From contig BPJO01000002.1 in NCBI GenBank assembly GCA_026004655.1, positions 186,001 to 250,000 of the forward strand: a stretch of 64,000 nucleotides of DNA. The letters are read 5' to 3'. The notes under the pieces were generated by a model that saw only the letters and a list, made by a program, of their open reading frames with translations, did no database searches and was not told the DNA's origin. How positions within the stretch are numbered: the first letter of the stretch is position 1; each line of letters begins with the position of its first letter. A program made the translations under genes and the position numbers. Source of the DNA: Phycisphaerae bacterium (lineage in GTDB: Bacteria; Planctomycetota; Phycisphaerae; Tepidisphaerales; Tepidisphaeraceae). Below, one piece after another: positions 25,478 to 27,280 of this stretch.

Positions 25478-26407
25478 TTATCCCGGGTCTTTAGAAGGGT
25501 TTGGCCATCGTGGCAGGGTTATCGTAAACGTGGTCCCACGACCGACCTGACTGTTAACCTCAATAGTCCCACGATGAGCGGTGACGATTTCCCGACAAAT
25601 CGCCAGACCAAGACCCGTCCCCCGGGATTCTCCTTTTCGGGCAGTACCCTTGGTGGTGAAAAACGGGTCGAAAATACGAGGTAGGATCTTTTCCGGGATC
25701 CCCGGACCGGTATCCACCACGCAAATCTTGACATGATCAGATTCTGCAACGGCTTTGATGGTGATCGAACCGGTCTTTCCCGTCATGGCCTGTTTGGCAT
25801 TGATCAGAAGGTTCAGAAGCACCTGTTCGAGCTGCACCGGGTCCGCAAATATCGTAAGGTCGTCCGGCGCTTGGACACGAAGCGCGATCCCGTCTTTCTG
25901 CGGATCCCTCGCCAGGATCGAAAGGGTTTCTTCGATCAGAGAAGAAACCTTGACCGGACCGAAATCCGACTCCCCTCGTGCCAGACCGAGCATCGATGTA
26001 CAGATTCGACCGGCTTTGCTGGCGCTGAGAAAACTTTTGGTCAGGGCTTTGGTCATCAGATCCAGATCGGGTTGCCCTTTTTCCACCCCTTGTAAAGCGT
26101 ACTGGGAATAAGAAATGATGGGGGTCAGCAGGTTATTAAACTCATGCGCGATCACGGCAGCGATCGTGCCGATAGTCGCTAAACGCTGGGTTTGCAACAA
26201 CTGCTCACGCAAGACCGATAACTCCTCCAAGGCCTCGGAGAGTCGTTTTTCGATCGTTTGAACTTCTTGGGTCGAGTCATCCGGTACGGTTTTAGAGTTC
26301 ACGATTGGGGGAGTATCGGTCATTGGAGATCGAGAATATGAATCGAACTGATGGTCATTCACGTTTTCACGGAATACGTCCAAAGCAACAAGGATTGTTT
26401 TTCCCAT
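25478..26407 (-). CDS. Soluble sensor histidine kinase
   Basis: 309 residues. A coiled-coil linker at 50-78 leads into the HisKA dimerisation domain with the phospho-acceptor His88 in [14 protein letters not shown], then a HATPase domain: N box NAKQAM-like ([14 protein letters not shown]), G1 [13 protein letters not shown] box FDPFFTT and G2 [12 protein letters not shown]. There is no transmembrane segment or recognisable sensor domain in the N-terminal 50 residues, so its input is unknown and it may sense through a partner. No response regulator lies next to it. The start is uncertain because ATG 26323 is also possible and neither has a strong ribosome binding site. Confidence 0.88.
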
Positions 26408-26640
26408 CGTCTGATAAAATGGACCGTACCATAATTGAAGAGAACGATTGTCTGTTAATTTAGGAAATATGGGATGTTTGGGTTGTTTTTATGAGCGCAA
26501 AAATGACCCCGGTCGACCTAATTTTTCCGCACATTTTGCGCGGTTATGATTGTAAGTGTCGGATTAAAATGAGCTTACAAAAAATATGGGTTATCAATCC
26601 GTGTTCAAGATTCGGGTGTTCTTCCGTCGATAGCTGAAGT
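26408..26640. other. AT-rich non-coding region upstream of the flgM leader
   Basis: No gene seen. It must hold the promoters of the kinase gene and of the flgM transcript, but no hexamer pair is convincing. An inverted repeat TGTAAG (26551-26556) with CTTACA (26574-26579) and a GCGCA/TGCGC-type short repeat nearby are the only structures noted. Confidence 0.4.
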
Positions 26641-26744
26641 GTCCGATGGTTGACGTTGCCTTTGAGGTAAGGTCAAGCCACCAGGCGACCGGGGATCGGT
26701 CGCCGAATGTCGGATAAGCTAAACCAACAAAGCTTGTCCTTTTT
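26641..26744 (+). promoter_or_regulatory. Candidate riboswitch or attenuator leader of the flgM-like gene
   Basis: The 5' part folds as a three-way junction. P1: GTCCGATG (26641-26648) with TGTCGGAT (26708-26715), including wobble pairs. P2: (GG)TTGAC with GTCAA(g)CC, extended by TTGCCT/AGGTAA. P3: GGCGACC (26684-26690) with GGTCGCC (26698-26704). The 3' strand of P1 overlaps a second stem, GGATAAGCT (26712-26720) with AGCTTGTCC (26731-26739), followed by five T, an intrinsic terminator. The two stems compete, so folding of the junction should prevent termination. The T run is followed directly by AGGAG and the flgM ATG. The bases conserved in c-di-GMP-I and purine riboswitches are absent. 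All pairing was checked by eye only. Confidence 0.55.
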
Positions 26745-26756
26745 GCAGGAGCATTT

Positions 26757-27097: not shown

Positions 27098-27129
27098 CGA
27101 CCCGGACACCAAACCCCGGGTCGGTTTTT
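27098..27129 (+). terminator. Intrinsic terminator of the flgM-like gene
   Basis: CGACCCGG (27098-27105) pairs with CCGGGTCG (27116-27123) over a ten-base loop, then GTTTTTG. It lies 69 bases past the flgM stop codon. Confidence 0.85.
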
Positions 27130-27280
27130 GTTTTCTGGAATGAGCTGGATGGAATAGCGGCAATCTTTAACTCAGAGAGCTTGTCACAACGAGTAGCAAA
27201 ACGAAAAGGGGAGCCAGCGACGTGGGTTTGCCGCGTGTTGTGACGACAACCCATACAATACCCGTCATCGGACCGACGAT

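Follow-up and report, generated by a model that had tools for sequence, protein, structure and literature searches.

The flgM locus and its promoter

The window analysed here, a stretch of 64,000 nucleotides, comes from a 3.4-Mb planctomycete draft genome whose named relatives, as returned by protein searches, are metagenome bins assigned to Phycisphaerae or Phycisphaerales. The features of the locus are collected in Table 1. The gene downstream of the leader had been called flgM-like in the initial annotation, and this is borne out by its product, which matches PF04316 above the cut-off (35.1 bits, E 1.6e-8) and scores slightly below the cut-off of TIGR03824 (37.9 bits, cut-off 40.75). Homologues of flgM were found in 22 of the 26 genomes of the family, and a full-length alignment was obtained for 21 FlgM sequences from these genomes, the one from the window's own genome included. 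A histidine kinase gene (HATPase_c; 25478-26407, minus strand) is divergent from flgM. A search of the own genome returned no further copies of the flgM leader, which is therefore not a repeat.

Table 1. Features of the flgM locus (window coordinates)
Feature	Position	Strand	Basis
Sigma-28 (FliA)-type promoter: TCAAGATT (26605-26612), 13-base spacer, GTCGATA (26626-26632)	26605-26632	+	family conservation
P1, 5' strand (GUCCGA), partner 26710-26715	26641-26646	+	folding at full length and truncated
Hairpin A, inner stem of junction	26648-26679	+	MFE -16.3 kcal/mol
GGA hairpin GGCGACCG-GGGAU-CGGUCGCC, proposed CsrA-binding hairpin	26684-26704	+	-15.2 kcal/mol
P1, 3' strand (UCGGAU), overlapping 5' arm of hairpin C	26710-26715	+	folding
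Hairpin C (26712-26739) and TTTTT (26740-26744), terminator-like	26712-26744	+	-11.8 kcal/mol
Shine-Dalgarno (SD) AGGAG, with second GGA 26748-26750	26747-26751	+	sequence
flgM (anti-sigma-28 factor), 90 aa	26757-27029	+	PF04316, TIGR03824, family homologues
Probable intrinsic terminator downstream of flgM (GACCCGG..CCGGGTC followed by T-rich sequence)	27099-27131	+	read from sequence

The leader had been taken to be transcribed from an upstream promoter, and boxes of the sigma-28 type indeed lie in front of it, giving a predicted transcription start at about 26638-26640, which coincides with the beginning of the element initially described. No promoter was found downstream of 26700, the second finding on which the initial annotation was to be given up. 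The pattern TCAAGATT-N13-GTCGATA scores at least 13 of 15 in 15 of 19 family flgM leaders, with a spacing of exactly 13, and none of 430 control stretches reaches 12; this comparison is descriptive, since the consensus was drawn from the same leaders on which it was scored. A similar arrangement, TCAAG-N16-GNCGATA, precedes flgM in about half of 40 genomes from other families of the class. The -10 sequence recognised by sigma-28 of enteric bacteria is GCCGATAA, which the -10 box of the flgM promoter matches, whereas the enteric -35, TAAAGTTT, differs from the one present here. The own genome encodes FliA (above the NCBIfam cut-off), so that conserved -35 and -10 boxes, a fixed spacing and a gene for the cognate factor, by which a sigma-28 promoter was judged, are all present.

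As a means of finding the regulon in the own genome, the promoter pattern was rejected. It has only three exact matches there, and the other two (L153 and L154) lie near transporter-like and kinase-like frames with no obvious flagellar gene, so that a pattern this short is not specific by itself.

Folding of the leader

The 104-nt stretch that the initial annotation had put forward as a possible new riboswitch or attenuator folds at -45.6 kcal/mol, against -28.8 +/- 3.7 kcal/mol for dinucleotide shuffles (z -4.5), none of 200 shuffles folding as well. In transcripts ending at 26716-26734, P1 forms with a mean probability of about 0.98 and encloses two inner hairpins; the proposed three-way junction is thus real as a folding intermediate. 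P1 remains dominant up to about 26738, and at 26740 hairpin C takes over and P1 drops to about 0.03. For the full leader, the minimum free energy structure consists of three separate hairpins (-49.1 kcal/mol), the junction (-46.1) being about 3 kcal/mol worse. The TTTTT that follows hairpin C adjoins GCAGGAG, which places this structure, as claimed, just ahead of the flgM ribosome binding site. A terminator scan did not list hairpin C because its loop of 10 exceeds the limit of 8 used by the scan.

Such competition is uncommon by chance. Of 400 leader shuffles, 23 (about 6%) contained a 3' hairpin together with an upstream partner that competes with it, and 2 (0.5%) had a T-run in addition, figures that apply to one sequence whose P1/hairpin C switch had been selected by a reader from 64 kb. 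The competition measure of the window itself varied from 0.63 to 0.97 with the 5' cut point, for a threshold of 0.7. The earlier observation was therefore partly confirmed: P1 and the terminator-like hairpin exclude each other in the folding of the window, and no tested homologue shows their overlap.

A conserved GGA hairpin in flgM leaders

The GGA at 26693-26695 lies in the loop of the window hairpin and is unpaired with a probability of 1.00. Hairpins with GGA in the loop were found in 13 of 21 family flgM leaders against 2.75 +/- 1.5 (maximum 7) in shuffles, the remaining 8 leaders having none by the criteria used; these leaders are related sequences and the counts are not independent. GGA is also the most over-represented loop triplet (62% of flgM leaders, 10% of control stretches), and RNase Y leaders carry a GGA-loop hairpin in 3 of 23 cases only (Fisher p 0.0014 for the difference from flgM). 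The family form is GGCGA-UGGA(A/G)-UCGCC, with variants that likewise have a loop GGA. The loop GGA is constant, and several stem positions have changed on both sides with pairing kept; the stem pairs were counted on an ungapped, GGA-centred alignment because MAFFT moved the window hairpin by one base, and the double changes from the window hinge on the register of that alignment. Different stems surround the GGA in L006, the closest homologue, and in L010.

The loop motif recalls the sites of CsrA, a widespread flagellar regulator, which have GGA in hairpin loops and often a second site at the SD; an ANGGAN hexaloop on a short stem is preferred without being an absolute requirement, and the SELEX consensus is RUACARGGAUGU (PMC7652899). 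Most flgM homologues have an SD with GGA, and in the window the SD likewise supplies a second GGA, a possible second CsrA contact. The two weakest points of a reading in terms of CsrA are the loop sequence of the window, GGGGAU, in which the A of ANGGA is missing, so that it conforms to neither ANGGA nor ANGGAN, and the geometry of the family hairpin, a pentaloop on a stable stem and not a hexaloop on a short one. Relatives with UGGA or AGGA do have the A before NGGA, but as part of the A-U pair closing the pentaloop.

Beyond the family, CA[AG]GGA occurs 18 times in 40 class-level flgM leaders against 3.6 +/- 1.7 in shuffles, a five-fold excess, and CARGGA is present in 16 of these leaders as compared with 5 of 40 upstream control stretches. 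The examples CAUGCAAGGAUGCAUG (L125) and GUACAAGGAUGUG (L119) are close to the SELEX consensus. CARGGA did not occur in the family leaders when the SD was left out.

CsrA, FliW and flagellin genes

Each of the 26 family genomes has a csrA gene. In the own genome, this gene sits between fliW and a flagellin gene, the three being consecutive at C2:282830-284161 (L033, L060 and L185), about 33 kb past the window. The csrA gene of this cluster (C2:283374) matches an NCBIfam equivalog above the cut-off, and its product has the RNA-binding residues, L4 and the VHRKE motif with R44, as well as a C-terminal extension; in Bacillus CsrA, the extended C-terminus is the part that contacts FliW (PMC7652899). 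The best PDB match of the protein is chain D of 5dmb, named carbon storage regulator homolog.

Among 30 flagellin leaders of the family, 18 have a hairpin with GGA in its loop, which in several reads AAGGAU, and in 13 the SD lies within TCATGGAGGATTG, in many of these inside the hairpin CAATCATGGAGGATTG. The leader of the own flagellin gene (L185) has the GGA-loop hairpin AACGGGCAACGGACGCCCGTT and an SD inside CAATCATGGAGGATTG, as in CsrA control of the hag type. Taken together, the csrA genes of the family, the fliW-csrA-flagellin cluster and the hairpins and SD context of these leaders make control of flagellin by CsrA very likely in this lineage, and flgM would share the signal.

Leaders of a second flagellin type (L206, L208, L191, L209, L198, L203 and L211) share a motif close to GACCGCAGATCC, and some also carry TTTCAAGGGAATGAA, a hairpin with an AGGGAA loop. 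A second, split and weak CsrA-like domain is encoded elsewhere in the own genome (G000:C8:122687-122986), and diverged csrA-like frames resembling it occur in several relatives.

Probable control of flgM by CsrA

What is conserved, a hairpin with GGA in its loop and a sigma-28-type promoter ahead of it, suggests CsrA rather than a small ligand. We consider it probable that sigma-28 transcribes flgM into a monocistronic mRNA and that the region, a leader of about 119 nt at its 5' end, is controlled by CsrA. Computation identified the promoter, the conserved hairpin with its loop GGA, the csrA, fliW and flagellin genes and the hairpins with GGA ahead of flagellin genes; it is from them that we infer CsrA binding to the flgM leader, the sign of its effect and the link to FliW. 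Free CsrA would dock on the loop GGA of the 26684-26704 hairpin, and the dimer would bridge to the SD GGA, 55 nt downstream, thereby blocking flgM translation. Upon flagellin export, FliW would be freed and would remove CsrA, so that FlgM and flagellin would be made together and FlgM would damp sigma-28. Folding of the complete leader pairs the SD of the window with the 5' end, so that the bridge may not operate in quite this form.

The proposed arrangement resembles the leaders of Bacillus subtilis hag and Campylobacter jejuni flaA, which combine an upstream GGA in a hairpin loop with an SD GGA and belong to flagellar genes, with CsrA and FliW encoded beside flagellin (PMC7652899, PMC4894983). 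It differs from them in that the gene is flgM and not flagellin, the host is a planctomycete, the loop is a pentaloop (GGGGAU in the window) and 55 nt separate the GGA of the hairpin from that of the SD. In C. jejuni, CsrA has been shown by gel shift to bind flgM mRNA (PMC4894983), and control of the leader described here would thus represent a new case of a known circuit. On C. jejuni flgM, CsrA enrichment is reported within the ORF but not in the 5' UTR, and the passages considered do not describe a conserved leader hairpin, unlike in the present family (PMC4894983). In E. coli, flgM is repressed by the sRNAs OmrA and OmrB, which is likewise post-transcriptional control of this gene, but by sRNAs acting in trans (PMC7549644).

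A text search found no studies of CsrA targets in planctomycetes. If our reading is true, planctomycetes of the searched class would couple FlgM to the same CsrA-FliW sensor of flagellin export by which flagellin is controlled; the sigma-28/FlgM checkpoint would gain a post-transcriptional arm in this way, and the promoter and hairpin consensus would ease prediction and testing of the regulon.

Alternative explanations

The GGA at the SD could also be controlled by the leader itself. The UCC at 26642-26644, which belongs to the 5' strand of P1, can alternatively pair with the SD GGA, and the leader might act as a translational switch in which the SD is sequestered when hairpin C forms and freed when P1 forms, CsrA or folding kinetics choosing between the two. 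Over the full leader, the probability that the SD GGA pairs with the first 15 nt is 0.87, and pairing of the SD to the 5' end was also predicted in L006 (0.44) and L010 (0.88). It exceeds 0.4 in only 3 of 17 scorable leaders, however, and the sequestering helix is a bulged, long-range one of 6 pairs worth about 3.5 kcal/mol, and we regard such a switch as unlikely.

Slightly less credence is given to a different role for the conserved hairpin, as the target of some other RNA-binding protein, of an RNase or of an sRNA, or simply as a stabiliser of the 5' end. GGCGAUGGARUCGCC is nearly fixed in the family, a conservation beyond what CsrA needs, and the loop geometry is not ideal for CsrA. Yet the GGA is the loop element retained as stems change, and the class-wide enrichment of CARGGA, like the GGA hairpins ahead of flagellin genes in the same genomes, agrees with CsrA and calls for no new factor.

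The riboswitch or attenuator originally proposed for the flgM leader is not supported by the comparison with relatives, and we consider it about equally unlikely. In that scheme P1 would be the antiterminator, its balance against hairpin C and the T5 being set by some ligand, by a protein or by translation. The overlap of antiterminator and terminator is present in the window, with the changeover at about 26738-26740, and only 2 of the 400 shuffles discussed above reproduced the hairpin, its competitor and the T-run; in L007, as in the window, five Ts follow a stem ahead of the start codon. These are the only two of 19 family leaders with a hairpin and U-run at that place. L006 has a strong hairpin before the SD, but no T-run and a 5' end without P1, and although a pre-SD hairpin recurs in several relatives, the U-run does so in L007 only. 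P1 was not found in any of the relatives' leaders that were folded, at full length or truncated. Conservation of the overlap, on whose absence from homologues the initial annotation was to be given up, is thus not seen, and a conserved P1 or terminator was rejected as a candidate element. In addition, the only conserved unpaired core is GGA, and hairpin C, with its loop of 10 and five Ts, is a middling terminator. Rfam covariance models gave no match either at the gathering score or up to E 10, which agrees with the earlier statement that conserved bases of the c-di-GMP-I, purine and SAM classes are not seen. The interpretation of the locus as a structured regulatory flgM leader with an upstream promoter thus stands, and its assignment to riboswitches or attenuators is not supported; the leader is probably not a new riboswitch and most likely a new case of the CsrA circuit.

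A combination of these states, in which the same 5' UCC would serve both P1 and the sequestering of the SD and, by way of P1, would also bear on hairpin C, with CsrA at the GGA hairpin deciding both termination and ribosome access as in a CsrA-gated attenuator on an anti-sigma factor, appears the least probable of all and very unlikely.

Minor observations concern the 5' parts of the leaders. A 5' hairpin in the position of hairpin A is also present in L006 and L007, with unrelated sequences. AGTGTC, at 26638-26643 in the window, recurs at the expected transcript start of the flgM leaders L005, L006, L014 and L015, a similar sequence stands at the start of L016 and L018, and it is possibly an initiation or 5'-end signal.
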